DNA of 64,000 nt from Bolinopsis microptera (taxonomy: Eukaryota; Ctenophora; Tentaculata; Lobata; Bolinopsidae): contig NC_087072.1 of NCBI RefSeq assembly GCF_026151205.1, positions 10,764,169 through 10,828,168 of the forward strand, given 5' to 3'. Every line of letters begins with the position of its first letter. Positions within the stretch are counted from its first letter, which is position 1. Positions 7,292 through 64,000 of the stretch are shown here, piece after piece. The translations under genes were made by a program, and so were the position numbers. The notes beneath the pieces are model-generated. The model did no database searches, was not told the origin of the DNA, and was given only the letters and a program-made list of their open reading frames with translations.

Positions 7292-9164
7292 CTTTAGTCT
7301 ATGGAATAAACGCCATGAGTTGGCACGGAATTTTTTGTGCCTGAGTTTGATAAATTGGGTACCAAAAGTTACCTCTAACTGTAAATAATAACAAAAAACA
7401 CAGCCGATTTTCTTTTATGGATGACCCTTCAATTTCCCAATCACGATCCGTAATGGCGTATTTTGGTTGACGATGTCAACCCATCGAGATCGTTGTTCTG
7501 CGAAGCAGAGCAACGATCGACGATGCATCGACGATGCATTCGATGCGAAGCAAGAATGCTAGTTCGCGCGGAGCGTCGAAGCGGCGAAGTCCTCCAATGG
7601 CGTATTTTATTGTATTCCATATAACCTGGGCACCTCAGGTTATACTGTTTAAGCAAAAAGATATGGCGAAGTTACAGGCCGAGCTTAAAACTTATTGTTT
7701 TATTGAATGCTAACTGCAAAATAATATAAATAGTAGCAAGACCCAATATAAAAACAACCTTTCAAAAACTCAATATATTCCCCATCTCAAATATTGGGAG
7801 AAACATTTCAAACAGTATACACCATATATGCAATAAATTAAGTCAAGTGATGCAATTGGCGAAGAACAATGTTACATGGGGACCCCAGGCTATTATGTTC
7901 AAAACATAACAAATTTGGCGGTATGACAGGCTAAGCGCCTGTTTTAAAATTATTCTGCTCCTGAAATCTTGGCTCTAGTAATTAATAAATGTGATATGTA
8001 ATTGTTAGATAACAGTGAAACAAATTTATTTTTGGTGAAACAAATTTATAATTTCATCCTTTATTTTACAAATATATTATAATGATATTTATAAGCCTGA
8101 GTTTTGAGAATTTTTATTTTAAAATATTCATATTTCTATTTAAAATTCAATTTTATGTATAAATCAATAAATGGTCACCAAAGCCGCGCATTCCTAAAAA
8201 CAGGAGTAACAAGGATTGACATCTTGAATCAATGTATGTCACGTTAAAACCAACTTCAATTGTAGGTTTATAACTTTTTAGGACGCGCGCCGAGTTGGAC
8301 TCGTCGACGGTAATATTTTCGGAGTATCACCCGTTAAAACTTCAATCGATGTATTTTCGGACGCTGATTCCGAATCACCCCATGACATAGAGTTTGCTTT
8401 AAGTAGAGCCCTCTCGCTTGCAGTAACGCACGACCGCGTGAAAGAAGCGCGTCACGCAGTATAGTCAGTGTAAAAAGCGCCAAGTGCGAGCACAGAACTT
8501 TTTTTCTCCGATTTCGATAAATTGGTACCAAAATGTGTGTAAAAATGTGAATAAAATAAATCCACCGTGTAGCAATTTTCGCTAAAAATGCTACACGGCG
8601 ATTGTTCGCCGCGCGTTGATACATGTTACGTATCACAAATACGCGCGCGAAAAGTGGCATGCAACGTATGTCAAGCCGCGTTTTTTTGGCCTATAACTTT
8701 CACATTTTCAGTTATTATCACATACTTAGTATGGCATCGTAATCAGCTCATCGAGACGAAACTTTTAGTACTAATATTTCAAGATTTAAAGGAAAATTAT
8801 TTTCAAAATTTTTAAATCTGAACAAAAGGGTGAAATTTTGAAAAATTTTTGAAAAATTTGGTGCTTCAGATAGTATAATTTTGGTACCAAAAGTTGCGTC
8901 TGACTAAGCGCATTACGATGCTGTAATAATTATTTCAAAATATTTAATATTTTAGGAGTAATAGGCATTTTAAGCAATAAATTACCCATTTTTCGTCCTT
9001 TGTACATTCTAGTAATGCACAGGAGGCCCACATATAGCTCGATGTTATTTTGCTACACGGTGAATTTGCATTATTCACACTTAGAGGCAACTTTTGGTAC
9101 CAGTTTTATCAAAATCAGAGACAAAAAGTTCTGTGCCAACTCATGGCGCTTATTACATAGACTA
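7292..9164. mobile_element. Composite element bounded by about 90-bp inverted repeats
   Basis: The segment 7292-7382 is the imperfect reverse complement of 9078-9164; the shared blocks include GCCATGAGTTGGCAC, GGTACC and a TAGTCTATG end. The interior includes a CpG-rich stretch (7440-7600) with short repeats of CGACGATGCAT type, a dispersed repeat at 7740-7800 and a second fold-back at 8476-9165. It appears to be nested non-autonomous DNA elements. No transposase frame is recognisable. Confidence 0.6.
7740..7800 (-). repeat. Dispersed repeat, partner of 12394-12454
   Basis: This 61-bp stretch (centre CCATCTCAAATATTGGGAG) is the imperfect reverse complement of 12394-12454. The similarity fades on both sides, so it is probably part of a dispersed repeat family. 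Confidence 0.6.
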
Positions 9165-9165
9165 G
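8476..9165. mobile_element. Diverged fold-back element related to the 757-2163 palindrome
   Basis: Left-arm blocks (GCACAGAAC, GATAAATTGGTACCAAAA, ACCGTGTAGCA, GCATCGTAAT, GAGACGAAACTTTTAGTACTA) recur in reverse complement and reverse order in the right arm, with the centre near 8820. The block around GGTACCAAAAGTT, then AATAATTATTTCAAAA, then TAATAGGCATTTTAAGC is shared with the arms of the 1.4-kb palindrome. The two are therefore members of one family; this copy is older and more diverged. Confidence 0.7.
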
Positions 9166-9369
9166 TACGCGTAGACACATGGTTATGTGAAACATAAAGT
9201 TAAAATGCTCCCCTGACGAGATATTGGCGAAAAACTGTCTCGATCAAGTAACATTACACTCTGTTTAACTTTTAACAGTCTCAGTTGAAAAGTTAAACAG
9301 AGTGAGCTCCACAAATCCTAAGTTTCCACCCAAAACATCAAGGCAACTAATTGAAACCCTATTCCTAAG

Positions 9370-9700
9370 CTTTTTCTACTACCAACAACATAATGAATAA
9401 ATTTCTTCATTTATTGGACATGTAGTTAGAATGCCAGACTCTAGACTACCGAGGTTTCTGTTGAACTGGAAGCCAAATTATGGAAAGAGGTCAAGGGGCT
9501 AAGTTTACAGGTGTTGAAAACATCGACAACGACACAACAGAAGCTTTGGCCACCAACCGAGTACTGCAGTGGAGACATATGTTACGCCGCCAACGCAATG
9601 TGTGTGATGCAGGCCACTCCAACGACTAGGAGGAGACTTTACCATGTATGTACATGTAACATTTATTGTAAATAAATAAAAAATTATATTTGAACAATAA
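9370..9700 (+). pseudogene. Degenerate LINE ORF2 C-terminal tail
   Basis: A plus-strand frame reads IGHVVRMPDSRLPRFLLNW, then YGKRSRG and a stop. A shifted frame continues with WRHMLRRQRNVCDAGHSND and a stop. The GHV.RM...RLP...GKRSRG and W...RR..CDAGHSN strings are the hallmark end of many non-LTR retrotransposon ORF2 proteins. The stop and frame change show that it is dead. Only the 3' tail is left, as expected for a 5'-truncated insertion. Confidence 0.75.
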
Positions 9701-9766
9701 ATTGTAATAAGATTTATATGCATGTGAAAAGGTAGCTACCATGGCTACCTCGTTTACTTCTTTTAA

Positions 9767-9786
9767 GGGGGGGGGGGGGGGGGGGG
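9767..9786. repeat. Poly-G run
   Basis: Twenty consecutive G residues, a simple-sequence tract beside the LINE tail. The length may be unreliable in sequencing. Confidence 0.9.
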
Positions 9787-10000
9787 CCAATGTGCAATGT
9801 TTCCTGCATCAATCAATGGTATTGTACCACAGGCATAAAATCCCATGGCAGGTGGGTCACCTTGTGTAGTCCCTCCTTCACTAAAAATATGATCATCTCC
9901 TCCTGCAATGAACAGTCTAGCAGGCATTCTGTGGGTGTTCATTATGGGCTAGATTGTAGATAAGATGTTTTCTACAATCAAAGTTAAGGGGGGGAGCCAA

Positions 10001-21517: not shown

Positions 21518-24500
21518 TCACCTCATAACAGCTAGAAGATAAGAGATGAATATTAAACTGATACTCCAATGAGCGCAGGAGCCGGCAGCGCCGATAGCAG
21601 CCTGTGGCTCGCACTCGGTCGGCTGACTGAACTGCCACTTCCCACTGGGGGAACACACCAGTGTCACTGTCTGGCCTGACTTGCACGATACTGTAGCCGT
21701 GTCAAACACTCCTATAGAACCTGGGATATAAAGTAGTTATTTGTTGGGCAAAATTTAGAAAAGTAGTTTTTTTCGAATTTTCGATCTTTTATCGAAGGTT
21801 CTAGATAACATTAGAAATCCTACAACATGATTATTACCTGCTTTCTTAGTGTAGAAGGCAACAGGGTACTCTTTAAATTCCTCGTCCTGGTCCAGGAGAG
21901 GGCAGGACGCGTTGTAATACTTGCACACGTACGGGAACGTGCTGTCCGTATTCGTCATATCCTCCCACTTTCCTTTAATAGAGTGGGATATTAACCTACT
22001 TACGTCATTGATAAGAATCAATGAGAACAAATGACAATTTGACGTGGCATTTCGTGAATAACAGGATGTTTTAATCGATTGAATCTTGAACTGGTCACAT
22101 ATTGTACATCTACTGCTGTTAAAACTAACCAGCTTTAGCGACGTCCATCACAGCGTAGTCACTGCCAGTTTTGCCCTCATTGTCCGGTTCGTCCTGTTTC
22201 CAGTTGCTGAACCTGGTAGACTCTTCCAAGGTGAACCACTGCCACTTTCCCTCCTTGCTCTCGTCCGTTAATCCTGTGGGTGGCATGGTTAGGCTACTTG
22301 TTTCTATCTTGTGATATCATGACGAGGAGCTTCCAAAAGTAAAAAGTTTTATTCGACCACAATATTCTTTTTTGTTCAGAAATATTCTGGATATGCCATG
22401 TCTGATGCGTCACTCTGAAGTAACATGTTTTCCTTACCTATCCAAGCTTTTTCGATGGTGTTATTCTGTAAAAGTCTGAAGACCCGGTCGTTTTGTTTAT
22501 TGTCCAGTATGGATACTAGCTGAGCACCAGGCTTCCAAGCTTGACAGGCCGCATGAGCATCCTGGATCTGGGGAGAGAAGAACGGTGTGATCGTAAGGTC
22601 TTAATAATCATAGATAATCAATAATCATAGTGTTTGTTCCTTATCATAACTCAGTTTTTTTCAAATTCTTTGGTGAGCAGAGTATTTTGTCAAATTGAAT
22701 GGTTTCACCTACCCCTTTCTTTTCCTTGAACAACTTCAACTCGAAGGGAGCATCAGGTTCCCATAACTCTGTGTTAACCTCATCACTATCTTCCTCATAC
22801 CTCTTGATGACCACATCTGTACTAGCCTGGACAAACTCCTTGGAATTGTACGCCAGGCACTGGTATAGACCCGGATCCCCATCAGTAGGATACTTGAAGA
22901 CAAGCTTCCGGATCCTGGATTCAGTGGTGACCACATCCTCTGTGTAGATCCTGTTGCTACCTGACACACTTTTACCGTCCTTGTACCAGCCAATGTACAC
23001 CTGAGGGAGCCAGGGTTTTAACATTTTAAGTGGCTGTATCAGTGTACTTTACGGGTAAAGACAAGCTGGAAACGTCGAATTGGGTTCAAATTTTAGAATA
23101 TTGGGTAAATGTTAAAATTACCAAAAAGAAAGAACTTACCGCATCAGTGGAGATGATATCTACAGCACAGGTCAGGTTGAAGGTATCATATCTGTTAGGA
23201 GTGATAGTGTACGATGGTGTGATGCCCTTAAAGTTGATCTCGTAACTTTTAGGTTCCTCCTCCAAGGTTAGCACCAGAGAGTTGAGTCCAGCAGAGTTCC
23301 TGACCTGACAGAAATACCCCCCAAAGTCACTCTCTTCCACATTTGTTATGACCAGTCTCCGACCATAGTCCTCGACACAAGTCTTCTCTCCACAGCCGGT
23401 GATACTGGAGGCTTGTTGGATAGAAGCTGCTTTAGCCCATGTGTATTCTGCTGGTGGGTACCTGGGGAAGGGATGTTTAAAACCAATGGATATCGTTTTA
23501 TAAGTTAAAGAGATATGATCCGACATTATAATTAATGAAATATTCGGTTGTATGATTCATTTTCGGAGACATACCCGTAAGCTCCGCAATAGAGTGTGGC
23601 GTCCTCTCCTAACTTGACCTTATCACCATAACTAGCATCCTCCAAAGCTACTGGTGAAGCACTGACTTGGTTCTGTGACCCTCTTATCTTGAAAGTAATC
23701 TGGGAGAGAACAAAGGTTCCTCCAACATCAGGGTCGTTCACTATTGCAATGCATTTATATACACCTGAGGATGGTTGAATGTTTTACCTTTTTAGGTATG
23801 ATTGTATTGCTCCAGACAAGTTTAAATTCTCGTTTCTAGGTGTGTTTATGAGACTTTTCTAAGTGAATCGAAAGAAGTTTTAATAGGCTTAGTTATGATC
23901 ACAAGAGACATTACTTCAGTAATAATACCTGCATGGTTCTCCTTCACGTTCAGAATGTAGAGATCCCCGAAGTTGCCTTGTCCAACTTTACTGTTCATGA
24001 AGACGTCAGCTTCACTGATGCTGTTCCCATCTTTAGTCCACTGTATCTGTGCAGGTGGATATGAAGCACTTGCCTTGTTACACTTCAGTATAGCTCGAGC
24101 TGAGGAACATGGATTAGTTCTTCTGAAGTTATCATGACGGGATACATTTCTTTGAACTCAAAATCATCATGATGGTTCTGCTCTTAAAGTGAAATAGTGA
24201 TAAATATCCCACCTTTGTTGGTGACGACACCATCCGAGGAGGTGACAGTGGAGTCGAAGCTGGTGTGTTTGACTAGGACCTCGCTGACTCTACTCAACAA
24301 AGAGTACCCGTCCTGGGACCTAGCTTTACATTGGTAGTAGCCAGCATCTGATACTTTGATATTCGATATTGAGATACTCGTTGAACCTTGGGAAGAGAGA
24401 GAGAGGAGTTGAGTGCTACGGATATTCTAAAGATGCAAATTATGACAAGCTTTAATATTATTTTGAAGTGGGTACCAGATATTTACAATTTTTTTGTCAG

Positions 24501-35636: not shown

Positions 35637-37895
35637 TCACGTCAATAGATAAGATAAGATAAGAAATAGTGTAAGAGTTTGATACGTTAACCTAACTCCA
35701 CCGCCGGTGGTAGCCTCGCCTTGTTTGTCTTTAACAGCGTTTATCTCAGGACATGTGCTGCCCTCGGCGAGGACCCACTTTCCACTGGGGGCACACTCCA
35801 ATGTAATATACTCACTTCCACACTTCACACTTGCAGTATCGTACACTGAGATCTTACTGGTCAGCCTACGCTTGGTGTACTTATCAAATTTGATCTCCAG
35901 TTCTTGTTGGGTCTCCAAGTCTACGCACGAAGCGTTGTAATGCTTGCACACAAATGGTAGCTGCAGGTTAAAATCCCCACCAATCCAGTGTCCTGATTTG
36001 GCGGCGTCCATGAAGGCGTAATCTCGTTCAGCCTCCGAGTTATCTGGCTCGTTTTTCCACCAAAAACTGAACTTGTCAGACACCTCGCCAGACAGCCACC
36101 TCCAAACTCCCTCTGTTGTCTCGTCCGTCAGGCCTATCCAGGCTCTAGTCTCGTTCGTTGTGTCCTTGTTTGCCATCAAAATGTCAAACACAAGATCATT
36201 CTCCTTGTAGTTCAGAATGGTGGCAAGATGGGCGTCAGTTCGCCACTCCTGACACGTTCTGTCCGCCTCAGCGGCGTTCTTAGCATCGCTAAAGTACTGG
36301 TAATCCTTCACTGTGTTCGGATCGTAGGAATCTGTCGCAAATGCACTGTCGTTATCGTAACCTTCGTCCTCTACCCCTTGACTGGTGTACACAAACACAT
36401 CCGTAGTGGCTTGTTTGAAAGTTCTGGAATTATAAGCCAGACACTGGTACACACCATGGTCATCGTTAGTAGGGAAATCAAACACCAGCTTCTGGACGCT
36501 GATTCCGTTCTCCGAGGAGCTGAATATCCTGATCCTTTCTCCCTTGTCTGCGATACCTTGTGTGTTCTGGTACCAGCCCATGTAGGTCTCTGGGTTCTGG
36601 GATGTGTTCACTTCGCATGTCAGGGTAAAGCTGGTGTAGCGGTTGGGTAACACTTTCACGGGGTCTGAGATACTCTCAAAGTTAACTGCGTAGGAGCTGG
36701 GCTCTTTTGACATGGCTATTATCTTGGTGACGTGGTCGAAGGAGTTGGTAGCGACACATTGGTAGTCCCCAAAGTCACTGTCCTGCAGGTTGTATATCCT
36801 CAACCTTCTGCCTCCTTGGTCGACACACTTTGACTCGGTACACCCTGATATCTCAGGCTGCTCCTCCCCTATGGCTGCCACTTTGTACCACTTAATGTCA
36901 GGAGCAGGGAACCCGTACCCTGCACAGTACATCACTCCCTCTTCTCCCTTCTTTTTCTTTTCACCGAAGTTGGCAGTTTCTTTGACTTTAGGAGCTCCGC
37001 TGACGGTGTTTTGTGATCCCGTGATGATGACAGTCCTCTCCGCCAGGGTCACTGTTTTGTCAAGTTCTGAGGAGGCTCCCTTACAGGTGTACTTGCCAGC
37101 GTGATCAGCCTGGACGTTCTGGATGTACAGAGAACCGAAGTCTGGAGATTTCTCGTTCCTGTTCATGAAATAGTCGGCGTTCTCGAATTCAACCACTTTG
37201 TCTCCAAAGTACCACTTTATCTCCGGAGTTGGATCAGCGTAGATCTCCGCACATTTAATCTCAAATAAGGGGTTACTTAGTGTAACTCTATCATCAGTAA
37301 CGATGGTATCCTTAGTTGTAAAGTGTTTCACTCTGATCTCTCCTACTCCACTGATCATAAGAAAGTCAGAGGAAGCGACCGCTTTGCACTGATAGAAGCC
37401 TGCCTCCTCCGGGGTGATCTCCTTGAAAACCAGCTCGCTAGTTCCTGTCATGTAGAGGTTCTTCTCGGCCGTGCCGTCTCCTTGAGGCAGCTCATCCAGC
37501 TTGTACCAGATGTACTGGATAGTGTACTTGTTGGAGACTAGGCAGCTGATCGTTACTGAGTCCCCGGCTATCACCGTCAGATCCTCCGGTTCCTTGGTGA
37601 ACTTGAACTGGGCGGAGGGCTCATCCATGTACTTTTTTGTGGCCTGCCGACACTCTTTCGACAGAGGATCCACACAGACATCGCTGGTGTCCTCCAGTTT
37701 GATTTTATCTGCAGGGCACACACAGCGACCAATGGTCCTGGTCGGACAGAGTTCCTTGTCAGGGTAAAAGTGAGCCGTGCAGGTAGCGATGCAGATACTG
37801 GCCTTATCCTGCCATATCAAGTCACCTGTACAGGACTCGCCACTGACGTAATGGACAGAGATTAGGAGAACTGTGATCACTTCCAACGCTTTCAT
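35637..37895 (-). CDS. Intronless paralogue of the TIL-Ig4-CTLD-sushi GPI-anchored protein (candidate retrogene)
   Basis: One frame of 752 residues from the ATG at 37895; nine in-frame codons upstream are left out because MKALEVITVLLISVHYVSG is an ideal signal peptide. The order is the same as in the 12-exon gene: TIL-like Cys-rich domain (about 22-82), Ig domains at about 97-190, 195-290, 295-395 and 400-505 (GFYQCKA, GKYTCKG, GDYQCVA, GVYQCLAYN), C-type lectin at about 525-655 (WIGLTDETTEG, NEPDNSEA), sushi-like module (SVYDTASVKCGSEYITLEC) and a hydrophobic GPI tail (LTLFLILSYLLT). The second calcium-site motif of the lectin is lost (HWIGGD). All eleven intron positions of the paralogue are absent while the frame is intact, as expected for an old functional retrocopy. 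An acceptor-like CACACAG sits just before the ATG, so a 5' UTR intron is possible. Confidence 0.93.
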   Translation of the reverse strand: MKALEVITVLLISVHYVSGESCTGDLIWQDKASICIATCTAHFYPDKELCPTRTIGRCVCPADKIKLEDTSDVCVDPLSKECRQATKKYMDEPSAQFKFTKEPEDLTVIAGDSVTISCLVSNKYTIQYIWYKLDELPQGDGTAEKNLYMTGTSELVFKEITPEEAGFYQCKAVASSDFLMISGVGEIRVKHFTTKDTIVTDDRVTLSNPLFEIKCAEIYADPTPEIKWYFGDKVVEFENADYFMNRNEKSPDFGSLYIQNVQADHAGKYTCKGASSELDKTVTLAERTVIITGSQNTVSGAPKVKETANFGEKKKKGEEGVMYCAGYGFPAPDIKWYKVAAIGEEQPEISGCTESKCVDQGGRRLRIYNLQDSDFGDYQCVATNSFDHVTKIIAMSKEPSSYAVNFESISDPVKVLPNRYTSFTLTCEVNTSQNPETYMGWYQNTQGIADKGERIRIFSSSENGISVQKLVFDFPTNDDHGVYQCLAYNSRTFKQATTDVFVYTSQGVEDEGYDNDSAFATDSYDPNTVKDYQYFSDAKNAAEADRTCQEWRTDAHLATILNYKENDLVFDILMANKDTTNETRAWIGLTDETTEGVWRWLSGEVSDKFSFWWKNEPDNSEAERDYAFMDAAKSGHWIGGDFNLQLPFVCKHYNASCVDLETQQELEIKFDKYTKRRLTSKISVYDTASVKCGSEYITLECAPSGKWVLAEGSTCPEINAVKDKQGEATTGGGVRLTYQTLTLFLILSYLLT

Positions 37896-39422
37896 TTCCT
37901 GTGTGGGATAGAGGTTAATCAAACAAAAACTTCATTTTCGGGCATATACATAGTATAGAGTTAATCTAATAAATTTTAGGCGACACATGTAATGGATGTG
38001 AGAATTTCTATTTTTAGTCCAACTCTAATCTGGATATTAGAAATCGCTAAAGCAAGGAAGAAAAAAGATGGTTCACTCCAAAAGATCAGCTCCCTGGCAT
38101 GCATCTTATAAACTTTAAAGGCTGTTGACAACATTTTAGACCGATTAGCGCGGGAAATATAAATACGGGAAAATTGGACAAGCCAACAGGATAACCGACC
38201 ACTTGAGAACACATGAACTATATCATTCTTAAGAGTAACTCCTGGTAGGACACACATTCATCGGCACATTATCAAATCAGCGTGTTAAAACCCCTGCTAA
38301 CTAATTACAGTATCGGCTACTTCAGGTAAAACCTAGGCAGCAGCCTGGACTTGCTACTTCATTGGTAATGCGATATGTCGGGCAGTGGATTAAATTTAGT
38401 CAACAACCTACAATCTCGTTAACCAAACGGCCTTGTTACTTCCACCTCCTTGAAGTGTTGGGGGTAGTGAGCAGCGAGCACGCATCAACGTGTTACAACT
38501 AGAAAGGCTGTAAAAGTAATCTCATGTACCCACCACAGTACTGCAGAAAGCACTGTGTGGTGGGAGCGCTGATCTAGTTATAACAATATATAAGCTATAA
38601 GATTGCCATTAGAACAGTGAATTCGAGCATTTCTGTGCGGAATTTGAGAGCTGCTCCTGGTCGCTGGCACCTTCAAGGCAGCTAACTGTAGACCTTGGAG
38701 ATTGTTGTAGACTATGTAATTAAGCAAACTGCGAGACTGTTGGCATGAAATGGGATAATACATTTAGTGCTGACTATATAAACCAGATAAACTATATAGT
38801 ATATAACATAGAGGCCCTTATTAGTAAATGAGGTAAGTACTCAATAAGAGTAAAGTACTCAATTCCAAGTTATTGTTTAGGCAAAAGGAACCAGATGTTT
38901 GACGCCAAAAAGAGGGGATTAGATCCAATATTGAACTGTGTGATGAGTTAAGCAAAGCAACTAGCTATTTCAATCTTCAAGTAGTCTTGAATTTCAGTAG
39001 TACAGCTGATCGAAGTCGCCATTGTGGCGTTTGTGCGAAAACACTAAACAATGTTCAGTAAACACTAAGCATAACAATTAATTCCCGGAATAGTTTTGCT
39101 AAATACACCTTATAAACAAACAAATGATCAGCCAATGTACCATTTATAGACCTGCCAGCAAATCCAATAAGCCATTAGACTATTTTAGGATGTTTAGTAA
39201 CAACTCGCTTAATGGCTTGCCTACCGCGAATAGTACAGTGCAAGAAAAAGCTCATTTCTGTGTTACAAGTTTTAACAAAAGATCACAAGATCTCTTTACA
39301 CACTAATGCGAATTTTGATGAGCCTTTGTCGTTCAAAACAACCGTCAGAATTACTGAAACTATTAAGAGCAGATAGTAAACAATACGAGACATCGCGTCA
39401 GCATTATAGAAGGGAGACGATC
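37896..39422. other. Upstream region of the intronless lectin gene; no gene seen
   Basis: Noncoding. The 5' end of this stretch probably holds the promoter of the intronless lectin gene. No motif cluster was recognised. Confidence 0.35.
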
Positions 39423-56304: not shown

Positions 56305-57783
56305 TAATAGATGTGGATACTGGCGGGGAGGTGATCATTGTTTGTTTACATTAATAGTGAGCACATGTTAAGCAGGCTGAGGAGGTGATCATTGTTTGTT
56401 TACATTTTAGGTGGAGCACATGTCAAGCAGGCTGAGAAGGTGATACATATTTTGTATTATAGAAGGTTTGTAACACTTGTAACGCCTTCTTGTTACCCTC
56501 CTTTGAGGGCCCCGAATTATTTTCTGAACGAAAGCTCAAAAATAACCGAGAAATCGACCTTCTTATTAACTCATTTTGATGACCGTTTCTAACCTAAAAT
56601 TATAGGGGCCCGTTCAGAAAAATCTCATATTGTACATGGGCAGTGGGCACGGTTACATTGTAATGATCACGGTTCACACAATTTCTAGTTCTGTATGACG
56701 TAATCATGGCGTGTGTACCGAGGTGCAGTCTGCAGATAAGAGCACCTTGAAATTGCCAACCTGTGGCAGAGATAACAATGTGAACAAAGGGTCAAATACA
56801 GATAAGAAAGGTAAACATACGATATAATGTCCCTCTGCTCACTCTTCCTGTTGTGATTGGACGGATCAGCGTCACGTGACAGAACACCTCTATTACAATT
56901 GGTCGGGATCACGGAGCACATCAGGGCTGCCCGTCGTCCGAATAAATATAATTCAGTTGTTATTATGATTGTTATATACCTTTATTGTGTTTCTTTTGAC
57001 TTTTGCTATATCGTGCTCTGCTCTGAAAATTGTGATAGAACCTGTTCGAGTTGTTAATGAGACAATCTCCTTGTTCTTTCGTTGCAGAATCAACATGTTC
57101 TTTGTTTGAGTAACACAACAATTTTGAGGAAAAAGGAAGCGTTATTGGGCTGTAAAACCAACTTAAATCGATTTCTCGTTGTACAGGTGAGGAACAGTCA
57201 CCAAAATGAGTTGCTTACCTGCTGTGTTTTGTCGTACTCTGCTCTTCGCTCAAGTTCGATCAGTTAAGGTGAGGATTGCCTCGATCTTTCGGTTTCAGCC
57301 CTAGGTCAAGAGCTGTAGAACCGAAGGATCAAAATATATGTTGCTTGTTGCTCGCATTCTAAACTATAAAACATCGATTTTGAGGGATAAGGAAGTGTTT
57401 ATAGGTTCTGAAACCTAGCTAAATCGATTTTTCGTGCAATTTTAGGTTAGAAACGGTCATCAAAATGAGTTAATAAGAAGGTTGATTTCTCGGTTATTTT
57501 TGAGCTTTCGTTCAGAAAATAATTCGGGGCCCTCAAAGGGGGGTAACAAGAAGGCGTTACAAGTGTTACAAACCTTCTATAATACAAAATATGTATCACC
57601 TTCTCAGCCTGCTTGACATGTGCTCCACCTAAAATGTAAACAAACAATGATCACCTCCTCAGCCTGCTTAACATGTGCTCACTATTAATTAACTGATGTT
57701 TATCATTCAATTCTCCGACTTACAATAATCAATGATACTGCTGATTAGAAACTCGATAATAGTAGAACAGTTAGACGCGCGAT

Positions 57784-59640: not shown

Positions 59641-59916
59641 ATTAAGTTGATTGATCTTGTGGGGTGGTTGTCAGTTTATTTATTGCCGATTGTGAGAATC
59701 CAGCTCAGAGGGCATGGGACAAAATTAAATCTTGCTTAGATTAACTCTGCAAAATCTTAACAACATAATCATCAACCGATAGTTTATATTACATCGAAAA
59801 CAGAAAAGGTTTAAACAATCTAAAAAGCCTCAAAAGACAAAAAAATTCAGGGAATCGTTAAGCAGTGTCCGTAAACATGCCATCATTAAAAAAAAAGTTT
59901 AATTAGTGACGCATTT
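59641..59916. other. 3' side of the peptidase-lectin gene
   Basis: AT-rich, probably the 3' UTR of the minus-strand gene. No other feature was seen. Confidence 0.35.
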
Positions 59917-62044
59917 TTAGATCATTAAAAGTCCAAGTAGAAGGGCTAAAATTGCAGATAAGGTCGAGTGTCCAGCTTTAGCTGTTTGAAAGCTTTTACC
60001 TGAACAAAGTGTCTTTGGATTAAGTGCAGGCTGAAATACACCCTTGGAACATGTCATAGTCTGGCTGATCTTCTTATTGTTTACACATATTGCTTCCAAC
60101 TCTTCTCCATCTGCAATGAAGTCCTCCTCGGGTGGTTCTAGGATGAACAGATCTGATTTGATCACAGTACACTCACCATTATTAACATCATACGGGGCAT
60201 TGCCATTTGAACCTGATGGAAAGAAGTTTAAAACTGGCAATTGAAAAAGGCATATCGTCAATCGTCATCAACGCATCTTCGTTTAAATTCTAATTGCATA
60301 ACTTCTAAAAAGTTATGCAATTTTTCCAAAAACTCTTAACTCAATCCGCTAAGAAACTAGGGAACTGATTACTGAAATGAGATTTTACTACCTCCGTTAC
60401 TACATAATGGAAGAGGCTGATCCCACTGTCCCCCAATACACTGTAACGTATCTGAACCCACTAGTGTTCCCTCTTTACATTTGACCGTTGCCTCTGTGCC
60501 TTCAGTCAAATCTGCTTTGCTAAATCTAACATTCCCGTTTTGGACTGCATTTTCTATGTTCCAACAGTTCACTGTATTTGGAAAGAAGGGTTATGGTTAT
60601 TCTGAAAAAAGCTGTGTAATAAGTTACACGATTCTACTTATTCTTCTTGACAAATTAATGAATAGATAAGGGGTCAATATACTTAAATAACTAATAAGGC
60701 GATAAAATGTTGGGTTGTTTTATACCTGCCCGGCTGCAGAGACCCCTTGCTTCAAACGTGAGAGAATTCTTGGTGACCCATTCACCAGAGTTCTCATCTA
60801 TCAACCCATAATGATTCCCTCTACCATGACTCGGTATGTTGATATAGTTAGCCGGCGTAAACCCGTCCAGCCACCTGTATGCTCCAGTTCTATCTTCATC
60901 TCTGTTGTAAATAATTGCAATTAATTTTTGAGATTTCTCATTGGTTTTGCGAACCGAGACATTACCTGAACAGGTCTTAAAAGGTAATCTTCAAATGAAC
61001 TTTTATAGTACCCCTTTTATAGAACTCATTCAACAAAAACAATCAAGCTTCAGTATATGTATGTAACTTACAATAACCCAATCCAAAAGAGCTTAAATTT
61101 GTCATCTGTCTTCTCCCCAGGATAATCATCTGCTAATTTATCCACTAACAGATTGTTATGATACTCTGTAGGGATGGTCGCCAAATCCCATCCACTTTTA
61201 TGTTTTGTATCCATCGCTTGGCAAGAATCTTTGCATTGTTGATAGGTCGTCGGGTGCCCCTCATTACAATATGCATACTTCAGATCTGGCAGAACAGAAA
61301 AGTTACGTTTCATTACCAAGATATTAAAGAGAAGTAAATAAAATGAACATCTTGAACACAAATATTATAGTCTTCATTGTTACCTCTTCTATAAGTAGCT
61401 AAAAGTGAGAAGGCGTTCTTGTAGAACCCACAGTTCAGGAGACTCTCGTCTCCACGAGCATAGTCAATATATCCATTGTCTCCAAAATCAGTTCCGTAGC
61501 TTTGGGATATTTTGTTTGATGAAGTTCAAAATATGATTGAGAACTGAAAATAAGTCTCAAAGAAAATGTTCTTTTTTTCACCAAATCAGAGGAGTAAAGG
61601 TGATGATTCCTAATAATGTTGATACACATGTGATCATGATCTTACCTTGCTTTGACACGAAGTGTTTTGTCAGTGTATCCTACTAGTAACATGGCGTGAG
61701 GCATTGGGTTAGTAGCACACTGTGTGTCTCTATACTCTCCTGCAAATGTGAAACGTAGCATGTTCTAGACTTAAACTATTCATGTTATCTTTGGGGTGTC
61801 TTCCGATGGTTCATACTTTAAAGTGTATGGATAACTGTGTATAAACCCAGGCAGTGTAACTAACCTCCAGAATAGGCGAAGAGGTCATTGCCTATCATAG
61901 TTCCAAACGCAACTGGAGATGTAGTTAATCCTTCCAACATTCCAACCTCACTTGATTGGAGTGGCACGAAATCCTGTATCCATATCTTTGTCATGGCGTT
62001 ATTTTTAAAGTTGACGATGTCTTCCAGTATTTTGCACGGCGTAT
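59917..62044 (-). CDS. Fusion of papain-type (C1A) peptidase C-terminal half, C-type lectin and sushi-like modules with GPI tail (5' end outside the recognised exons)
   Basis: Seven minus-strand exons: 61865-62044, 61646-61739, 61384-61499, 61072-61285, 60726-60901, 60392-60571, 59917-60212. All phases agree, giving 418 codons including the stop. The first three exons encode the end of a papain fold: SPVAFGTMIGNDLFAYSGGE, the catalytic-His strand MPHAMLLVGYTDKTL, then VKASYGTDFGDNGYIDYARG, where papains have VKNSWG. The catalytic Asn is therefore Ala if the junction at 61646/61499 is right. Exons 4-5 encode a C-type lectin-like domain (GWDLATIPTEYHNNLL, LFWIGLLDEDRTGAYRWLDG). Exon 6 is a sushi/CCP module (ATVKCKEGTLVGSDTLQC). 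Exon 7 is a second Cys-containing module and a hydrophobic tail (STLSAILALLLGLLMI) suited to GPI attachment. The catalytic Cys half must lie upstream, beyond the LINE at 62142. Confidence 0.87.
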
Positions 62045-62141
62045 CTGCGGATTGTATCATTTTACTTACGCTAACACTTATATATCTTACTATATATAAA
62101 GCGAGACGATATATATATATTTATCTGTGCCATTTTACTGA
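62045..62141. other. Intron remnant between the peptidase-lectin exon and the LINE
   Basis: About 100 bp of AT-rich intronic sequence with an (AT)n run at about 62110-62120, adjoining the LINE insertion point. Confidence 0.5.
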
Positions 62142-64000
62142 CACCACGGCATCAACTTTGACATAAGACTTAACGCTAGAAAGAAAAAGTCTACCAAACG
62201 AAAAATCTATAGCTTCAAAAGGGCCAATTGGACTAATTTAAATAATGCACTGAATTCTGAAAACTGGGAACATCTACTTAGTGGTAAACCAGTCGAAGAG
62301 GCCTGGTCAGTTTTCAATACTATTTTCACTTCTCATTGTAATTCACATATTCCTAAGATATCTGTCTCCGATGAATTTCAACCCCCATGGTTTGACTCAG
62401 ATGTCTTTGATTTATGTAGAAAAAAGGAGCGACTACATGACGAATGGAAACAGTCTTCTAATCCAAAAAAATATTTAAAATTTTCCAAAGCTAGGAGGGA
62501 TTTTAAAAATCTCGTTGATGCAAAATTGGACGCAAACTTTGAAGATGATGATAACAGAAATCTCATTAACAAAAAGTTCTGGTCTTTTGTGAAATCTAAA
62601 TCAAACTCTAATCGCATTCCTGAAACAGACAGCTACAATGGTTGCCTACGGTCCGATCCGCAAGGACAGTGTGAGTTATTCAATAAATATTTTAACGAAC
62701 AGTTTACAGAGGGTAGTGATTATGATATAGATATCGACTTTTCCAGTGACCGTGATTTTCAGGTCAATTTCGACACTTGTAAAATCAAAGGTTTACTTGA
62801 AAATATTGATCCAAGTAAAGCGCAAGGGGCCGACAATATCCATGGAAGAATTTTAAAGTACTGTTCAGTGAGCCTGTCTAAGCCTCTTGCTATCCTTTTT
62901 GAAGCTTCTTATAAAACTGGATGTATTCCAGCAGATTGGAAAATGGCAAACGTTGTTCCAGTTCATAAAAAAGGCTCTAAAATTGAAGTTAACAACTATA
63001 GGCCAATTTCTCTGACAAGCATTATTATGAAAGTTTACGAAAAAGTAATCCGGGATGAATTGCTCAATCGATGTGAACATCTTATTGATCAACGTCAACA
63101 TGGTTTTATGAGTAGGAAATCATGTACAACTCAGCTAGTAAATTTCTGTGACAGCTTAGCCCTATCTCTCAATGACAATGTTCGCACTGACATAATATAC
63201 TTTGATTTCCAAAAAGCTTTTGATTCTGTCAACCACGACATAATTCTGTTGAAGCTCAAAGAACAATATAACATTGATGCATCTCTACTGAGATTCTTCA
63301 AGTGCTACCTTGAAAACAGATACCAAAGGGTTGTCATTGGAAATAAAATGTCTGCTCCCTGTCAGGTTAGATCAGGTGTCCCCCAGGGCTCAATTTTAGG
63401 GCCTACTTTATTTATACTTTTTCTTAATGACATTACAGAGGATTTGTCACCGGAAACAAATATAACCATGTATACTGATGATACAAAAATATGGCGTAGA
63501 ATCACGTCCCAGGATGACCATTGGCTGCTCCAGCGGGATATTAACAGTCTTCAAAATTGGGCTCATCATAATAAGATGGTGTTTCACCCTTCAAAAAGTC
63601 ACGTTCTTTCTATTACCCGAGCATATTCTATGAATCGTAGTGTTAATTTTGTGTACTCAATGAATGAAACGGCTATCGAATACACAGACATTGAAAAAGA
63701 TCTTGGAGTACATATCAATAGTAAGTTAGATTGGTCACATCACTGTGATATGATATACTCTAAGGCTAGTCAGAGGTTAGGCCTTCTAAAAAGAACATGT
63801 TACTTCACCAAGAACACTAAAAAACGTCGGGCCTTCTATCTATCTCAGGTTAGAAGTCATTTCGAACACTGCACAATTGTCTGGCGGCCTCATTCAGAAA
63901 CCTCGGTGGAGAAACTTGAATCGATACAAAAAAGAGGTATCAAGTGGATCCTTAATGATATTTACTTGAGCCTTAGGGACAAAAAAAGGTATTTCATAGC
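62142..64000 (+). mobile_element. 5'-truncated LINE with open reverse-transcriptase frame (continues beyond window)
   Basis: The plus-strand frame is open from 62142 (after a TGA at 62139) to the window end, about 619 codons. It starts in the linker between endonuclease and RT (NWTNLNNALNSENWEHLLSG). The RT motifs follow in order: NVVPVHKKGSKIEVNNYRPI, SLTSIIMKVYE, YFDFQKAFDSVNH, SGVPQGSILGPTLFILFLND and the catalytic MYTDDTKIW (YTDD rather than the usual YADD), then HPSKSHVLSI and LGVHINSKLDWSHH. The thumb region continues with FEHCTIVWRPHSE and KRGIKWIL. The family is jockey/CR1-like. Lack of any stop over 1.8 kb indicates a young insertion, although the endonuclease domain is missing. It lies antisense in an intron of the peptidase-lectin gene. 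Confidence 0.93.

Follow-up and report, generated by a model that had tools for sequence, protein, structure and literature searches.

Descriptions of animal peptidases of the papain family (C1A) generally present them as lysosomal or as secreted in free form, with Cys, His and Asn as the catalytic set; ordinary cathepsins mature by acid autolysis. The usual calcium and sugar motifs of C-type lectins are EPN/QPD and WND. In Marasmius oreades agglutinin (MOA), the lectin part is a β-trefoil, and we know of no sushi modules or GPI tail in this protein. MOA is reported to be an active papain-like chimerolectin in which Glu takes the place of Asn, its papain-like domain being convergent, fungal and metal-dependent, and the same report, citing Vernet 1995, calls Asn175 of papain important but non-essential (PMC8244254). 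An immune survey of Mnemiopsis describes ctenophore proteins in which C-type-lectin-like domains (CTLDs) occur together with Ig, EGF, sushi and further domains; the first part of its section 6 and the legend of its Fig. 3 name no C1 peptidase partner, and the words papain and cathepsin are absent from its main text (PMC11797021). Among the matches listed, no title or abstract opening in the open-access literature describes a fusion of a C1A peptidase with a CTLD.

Such a fusion is encoded at one end of the stretch of DNA analysed here (the window, 64,000 nucleotides, C1:10764169-10828168), which belongs to the 264.65-Mb assembly of 232 contigs that was searched. The predicted product and its paralogues resemble animal cathepsin L/papain-type C1A peptidases (PF00112) in having equivalents of Gln19, Cys25, His159 and the Gly pair GG65-66, a signal-peptide-like start and an N-terminal pro-region. 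They differ from these enzymes in the loss of Asn175 in 8/9 members, in a Tyr at position 177 in 9/9, and in the lack of an I29 propeptide match in 3/3 members scanned, and they add a dibasic site before the mature chain and a C-terminal CTLD followed by sushi modules.

Gene model and family of loci

Spliced alignment yields a predicted 11-exon gene on the minus strand with GT-AG introns, encoding a stop-free protein of 627 amino acids. The order of its parts is signal peptide, propeptide, complete C1A peptidase, CTLD, sushi modules (one clear and one probable) and a GPI-like tail. Exons 5-11 occupy 59917-62044. For this interval the sequence-only reading had claimed seven phase-matched exons, and all seven were recovered, with GT-AG borders and phases that fit together; its start (62044), end (59917) and 61646/61499 junction agree exactly with the spliced alignment. 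Exon 5 (61865..62044), bounded by phase-1 borders, encodes the middle of the C1A domain (TPCKILEDIVNF...LFAYSG). Exon 6 (61646..61739) carries the His strand PMPHAMLLVGY and ends in VKA, at the site that corresponds to papain's catalytic Asn when papain and 38 other C1A sequences of the genome are aligned with it, and exon 7 (61384..61499) continues with SYGTDFGDNGY to the end of the domain. The two halves of the CTLD lie in exons 8 (61072..61285) and 9 (60726..60901), and sushi (CCP) module 1 in exon 10 (60392..60571). Exon 11 (59917..60212) encodes a sushi-like module 2 with four Cys, a spacer and the hydrophobic, GPI-signal-like C-terminus LSAILALLLGLLMI before the stop codon, 232 nt past which an AATAAA on the same strand (59679..59684) is a possible polyadenylation signal.

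The first four exons, which encode the signal peptide, the propeptide and the catalytic-Cys lobe, lie upstream of the window and were located by aligning an intronless paralogue to the genome. In window numbering, exons 4 to 1 stand at 67318-67132, 67754-67539, 68068-67975 and 68318-68188, all on the minus strand (locus L009, G000:C1:10824000-10833990). The catalytic Cys sits in NQASCGSCW (exon stretch NQASCGSCWSFPN), about 5 kb upstream of exon 5. The start of the gene is signal-peptide-like, with a second possible in-frame ATG nine codons upstream. Exons 4 and 5 are separated by intron 4 (62045-67131, of which 62045..64000 falls in the window), and an antisense reverse-transcriptase frame of a non-LTR element, outside the gene and RT-like by eye, lies in this intron on the plus strand (62142..64000, read as open over 62142-63560). 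The Cys exon is found beyond this retrotransposon, and the idea of a missing catalytic Cys was rejected. Also rejected was an extra exon restoring Asn-Ser-Trp, since VKA runs straight on into SYG through a Ser codon (AG|C) split across 61646/61499, and L011, the intronless paralogue, reads VRGSYG within one frame.

When the genome was searched with three parts of the protein, the fusion was found at no fewer than nine loci on six contigs, always in the order peptidase-CTLD-CCP; nine is a lower bound, as the search scored the best candidates. Besides the window gene these are its tandem neighbour L010, the intronless L011 on C3, L012 on C5, L013 on C10, L014 on C1 at 8.77 Mb, L015 on C11, L016 on C2 and L017 on C3 at 14.7 Mb. 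All 21 matches to the CTLD-CCP query at E<=0.001 fall within these loci, and two peptidase queries returned the same nine together with further C1A genes of clearly lower score. The intron-bearing members (8/8) have eight intron positions and phases in common, and 7/8 share a ninth, an agreement that is favoured by building the models through alignment to family members, although the borders are nevertheless GT-AG. L011 has a single frame of 552 codons that can be aligned with the other members across the peptidase, the CTLD and the first CCP module, with 45% (CTLD) and 49% (CCP) identity to the window gene. This is an old copy, its silent sites being near saturation against L017, with a peptidase dN/dS of ~0.14.

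The joining of these parts, which the earlier reading had proposed for one gene, is hence not a chance arrangement, because eight other loci repeat the order, their introns are shared (8/8) and one member reads as an uninterrupted open frame. That the peptidase and lectin exons come from neighbouring genes, or from a misjoined assembly, is extremely improbable against the same order on six contigs, the shared intron positions and phases and the intronless copy, and separate transcripts are very unlikely because L011 holds the parts in one open frame. The claimed fusion therefore stood up to a check against all nine loci; as to the further parts claimed with it, the second CCP module is judged probable from its four Cys, and the tail GPI-like from its composition.

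Catalytic residues, putative activation site and selection

In the spliced window gene, Pfam matches Peptidase_C1 with 115.4 bits over profile positions 1-217 of 220. The part within the window, spliced and scanned by itself, gives Peptidase_C1 at 2e-10, Sushi at 1.4e-4 and Lectin_C at 0.0015 (19.7 against a cutoff of 22.6 bits). The replacement of VKNSWG by VKASYG with the His strand kept, noted in the sequence-only reading, is real in this model, and it belongs to a pattern that runs through the family. In alignment with papain, Gln19, Cys25 and His159 are kept in 9/9 members, while the Asn175 position holds Ala in six, Gly in two and Asn in one (L016). For the controls, 40 sequences with the best scores were taken from the 87 C1A matches outside the family, and 38 of them yielded a frame (L031 and L045 did not) under a pattern that required [SA][WYF]G and made no demand for Asn. 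Asn175 is kept in 38/38 of these controls and lost in eight of the nine family members, and Trp177 is Tyr in every member as compared to 2/38 controls, counts in which the sequences share ancestry that Fisher values ignore and in which the controls include the near-copies L034/L035, L033/L044 and L024/L025. Because all controls keep the Asn, its loss marks the C1A-CTLD family among the sequences examined and is no artefact of alignment. We would place the window gene in C1A on grounds of descent, although it lacks the canonical triad.

Among the 38 controls with Asn, one has Ser in place of Cys and three have no aligned Cys. The C1A copy L054 (G000:C11:2635770-2639078) has Ser at the catalytic Cys and keeps His and Asn, which is the opposite of the family pattern. 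A tree built from the nine members together with papain and a subset of 16 of the 38 controls joins the members at 100/100; the Ala group has a support of 62/53 under a long-branch warning, and the Asn may have been lost once or repeatedly.

A dibasic pair precedes the mature-chain Trp by no more than 30 residues in 9/9 members and in 0/30 controls, the other eight controls having no usable stretch. In seven members it lies within 22 residues, and in L012 and L017 it lies at 23. The site of the window gene reads RSKR and stands just before the mature N-terminus LPKTFDYW, whose start was placed by alignment with papain. From this motif we infer cleavage by a convertase, and a surface or secreted enzyme that depends on a convertase for activation would require such a site. 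The pro-region of the window gene has a weak ERFNIN-like look. At E<=0.1 the Pfam I29 propeptide profile matches none of the three members scanned, and at E<=0.01 it matches 2/3 conventional cathepsins; because of this lack of a match, zymogen control may differ in the C1A-CTLD family.

Selection was assessed in six pairs of members, two of which gave no peptidase ratio. Silent sites are unsaturated in one pair alone, L014/L015, and its peptidase dN/dS is 0.18 (9 silent and 6 replacement changes), which shows that the peptidase is under purifying selection in this usable pair. The other parts of the same pair have ratios of 0.42 for the CTLD (5 and 8 changes), 0.43 for the CCP (2 and 3) and 1.3 for the pro-region (1 and 5); the numbers of changes are small for all parts, the peptidase included. 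Three further pairs give peptidase values of 0.11-0.14 at near-saturated silent sites, and in every comparison that gave ratios the peptidase value is the lowest among the parts.

Lectin-like and sushi modules, C-terminal tails and neighbouring features

Scanned alone, the CTLD of the window gene reaches 22.8 bits against the Lectin_C cutoff of 22.6, and within the whole chain it scores 18.7 bits, below that cutoff. Seven of the nine family CTLDs were scanned, and six match Lectin_C at E<=1, the best at 1.4e-6. In a PDB profile search the top matches are LY75, the PLA2 receptor and mannose receptors, with scores that are summed over repeats. The EPN/QPD-type and WND motifs are absent from the CTLD in 9/9 members, exon 9 of the window gene included, so that what had been called a lectin domain keeps its fold assignment and loses the implication of a sugar-binding type. 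Four Cys are present in 7/9 CTLDs, with six in L017 and three in the model of L013, whose CTLD end is poorly modelled. The domain probably lacks the inner long-loop disulfide, and proteins or other ligands would be as likely as sugars. Sushi module 1 exceeds the PF00084 cutoff of 20.7 bits in the window gene (21.9 bits) and in L016 (35.2 bits), while module 2 of the window gene is sushi-like in its four Cys and gives no Pfam match. In L011, Pfam at E<=0.1 finds only Peptidase_C1; its CTLD and CCP module were identified by alignment with the paralogues.

The C-terminus of the window gene has a composition that fits a GPI signal of small residues, a spacer and a hydrophobic end with no cytosolic tail, and the mean hydropathy of its last 14 residues is 2.85. 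Its tail fits surface display of this copy, and the product may be GPI-anchored. Tails were read from open frames, leaving out the end of L015, and a GPI-like composition is found in two of the nine, the window gene and L010 next to it in tandem, and not in the other paralogues with readable ends. The tail that had been proposed as a GPI anchor thus appears GPI-like by composition in these two copies. L014 and L016 continue into sushi arrays, and L011, L012, L013 and L017 finish in basic, acidic or short stretches. L017 closes with Asp/His-rich repeats (HFDDDGHDHSAEED), possibly metal-binding, and a Lys run in place of a GPI-like tail. In L014 a long open frame from ~7758 to 9800, the end of the locus, was read over 681 amino acids and consists of near-identical sushi repeats of ~56 residues, which suggests a recent expansion of the array.

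Several other features were observed in the window and the genome. A single-frame gene on the minus strand, 22 kb away (35637-37931), encodes a strong CTLD along with Ig domains in four Ig_3 stretches, and its product ends in a hydrophobic, GPI-like segment; Pfam finds no Sushi match in it. Its CTLD is weakly similar to that of L011 (E 0.039) and is not among the 21 CTLD-CCP query matches. Related Ig-like pieces that score below the Pfam cutoffs lie at 22644-23556. At 56350-57689, inverted repeats of 252 nt, 99% complementary and 836 nt apart, likely represent a non-autonomous DNA transposon. Conventional C1A genes of the genome (L024-L063, for example L057, L059 and L041) bear C-terminal extensions, in which Pfam recognises ShK-like modules in 2/3 scanned; a terminal motif C-x-DG-(V/I)-C-(K/R)-HEHMC occurs in 5/9 inspected, and HAHMC in two more. 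An aequorin query returned 55 matches, among them dozens of photoprotein copies with unbroken frames, many in tandem ~1 kb apart and with arrays on C13, C5, C1 and C3, and the best match has as its top PDB hits the ctenophore photoproteins berovin (E 2e-103) and mnemiopsin 1 (6e-102).

Proposed mechanism and comparison with known systems

We lean towards reading the window gene as a peptidase that is activated by a convertase and works through a Cys-His dyad, either surface-held or secreted, lowered or tuned in its activity and aimed by its C-terminal modules, as opposed to a dead scaffold. The signal peptide would route the product into the secretory pathway, where a furin-like convertase would cut after RSKR and free the mature enzyme, and a GPI anchor would keep it at the cell surface; the sister proteins would be secreted, with long sushi arrays or with basic or acidic tails. 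Cleavage would be carried out by the Cys-His dyad with the oxyanion Gln intact, and loss of the His-orienting Asn together with the Trp177 to Tyr change would be expected to lower or retune activity without eliminating it. The CTLD and sushi modules probably bind a partner or a non-self surface and may in this way aim or limit cleavage, the likeliest settings being defence or extracellular digestion. A broader proposal, which is tentative, is that the nine loci represent a family of surface and secreted ctenophore cathepsins in which a Cys-His dyad stands in for the triad, convertases rather than acid autolysis act as the switch, and a CTLD free of sugar motifs is combined with sushi modules for aiming, giving an early-animal effector that would recognise and cut and for which the papers listed show no parallel.

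The sequence-only reading had offered a pseudoprotease or a low-activity surface enzyme, and of this the loss of Asn stands. A pseudoprotease receptor, with the C1A fold as a catalytically dead scaffold and binding left to the CTLD and sushi modules, would account for the loss of Asn in eight members and the altered Trp177 in all nine, and the Cys might be kept for a non-catalytic reason. The surface-type domain set also resembles receptor-like CTLD proteins as described in the survey of a ctenophore (PMC11797021). We nevertheless consider this reading rather unlikely, and a dead enzyme is not our first choice, because the Cys exon exists, Gln, Cys and His are retained without exception and the peptidase is under purifying selection in L014/L015. 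An activation-like dibasic site in every member also speaks against it, as does the loss of Cys in known C1A-like pseudo-enzymes such as silicatein and TINAG. An active enzyme could also serve digestion, secreted or surface-held in the pharynx, with the CTLD and sushi modules attaching it to prey or mucus. Digestion in ctenophores takes place outside the cells, in the pharynx, and cathepsin B-like activity has been suggested for Pleurobrachia in one report (PMC6733828). The C1A repertoire of the genome is large, with at least 154 exon-level PF00112 matches (150 of 281 candidates scored), and its conventional members also bear C-terminal modules. However, a GPI-anchored enzyme of low activity would be odd as a bulk digester, and this account, which we judge improbable as a separate explanation, overlaps with the convertase-activated surface or secreted peptidase and differs from it in setting alone.

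The convertase-activated, Cys-His-dyad peptidase that we favour can be set beside three described systems. The CTLD immune-type proteins of ctenophores, as presented in the Mnemiopsis survey, likewise join a CTLD to sushi modules (PMC11797021). That survey could have missed the peptidase fusion because it was Pfam-based, while the CTLD of the window gene scores below the cutoff when the whole chain is scanned. A join of CTLD and sushi modules to a peptidase near the base of animals may have supplied an effector to a phylum with little-known immune receptors. Silicatein and TINAG share with the family a non-lysosomal C1A fold with altered catalytic residues and, for TINAG, extra modules, but they change the Cys, whereas the C1A-CTLD family keeps the Cys and loses the Asn. 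MOA and related fungal chimerolectins, as far as their published description goes, resemble the family in placing a lectin and a papain-like protease with a Cys-His dyad and no Asn in one chain. Compared in this way by description, MOA would be an analogue of the window-gene family, the peptidase here being an ordinary C1A by Pfam. With Cys and His kept in all nine members, Asn lost in eight and kept in one, the family may offer a naturally occurring test of the role of the Asn, made by selection instead of mutagenesis.
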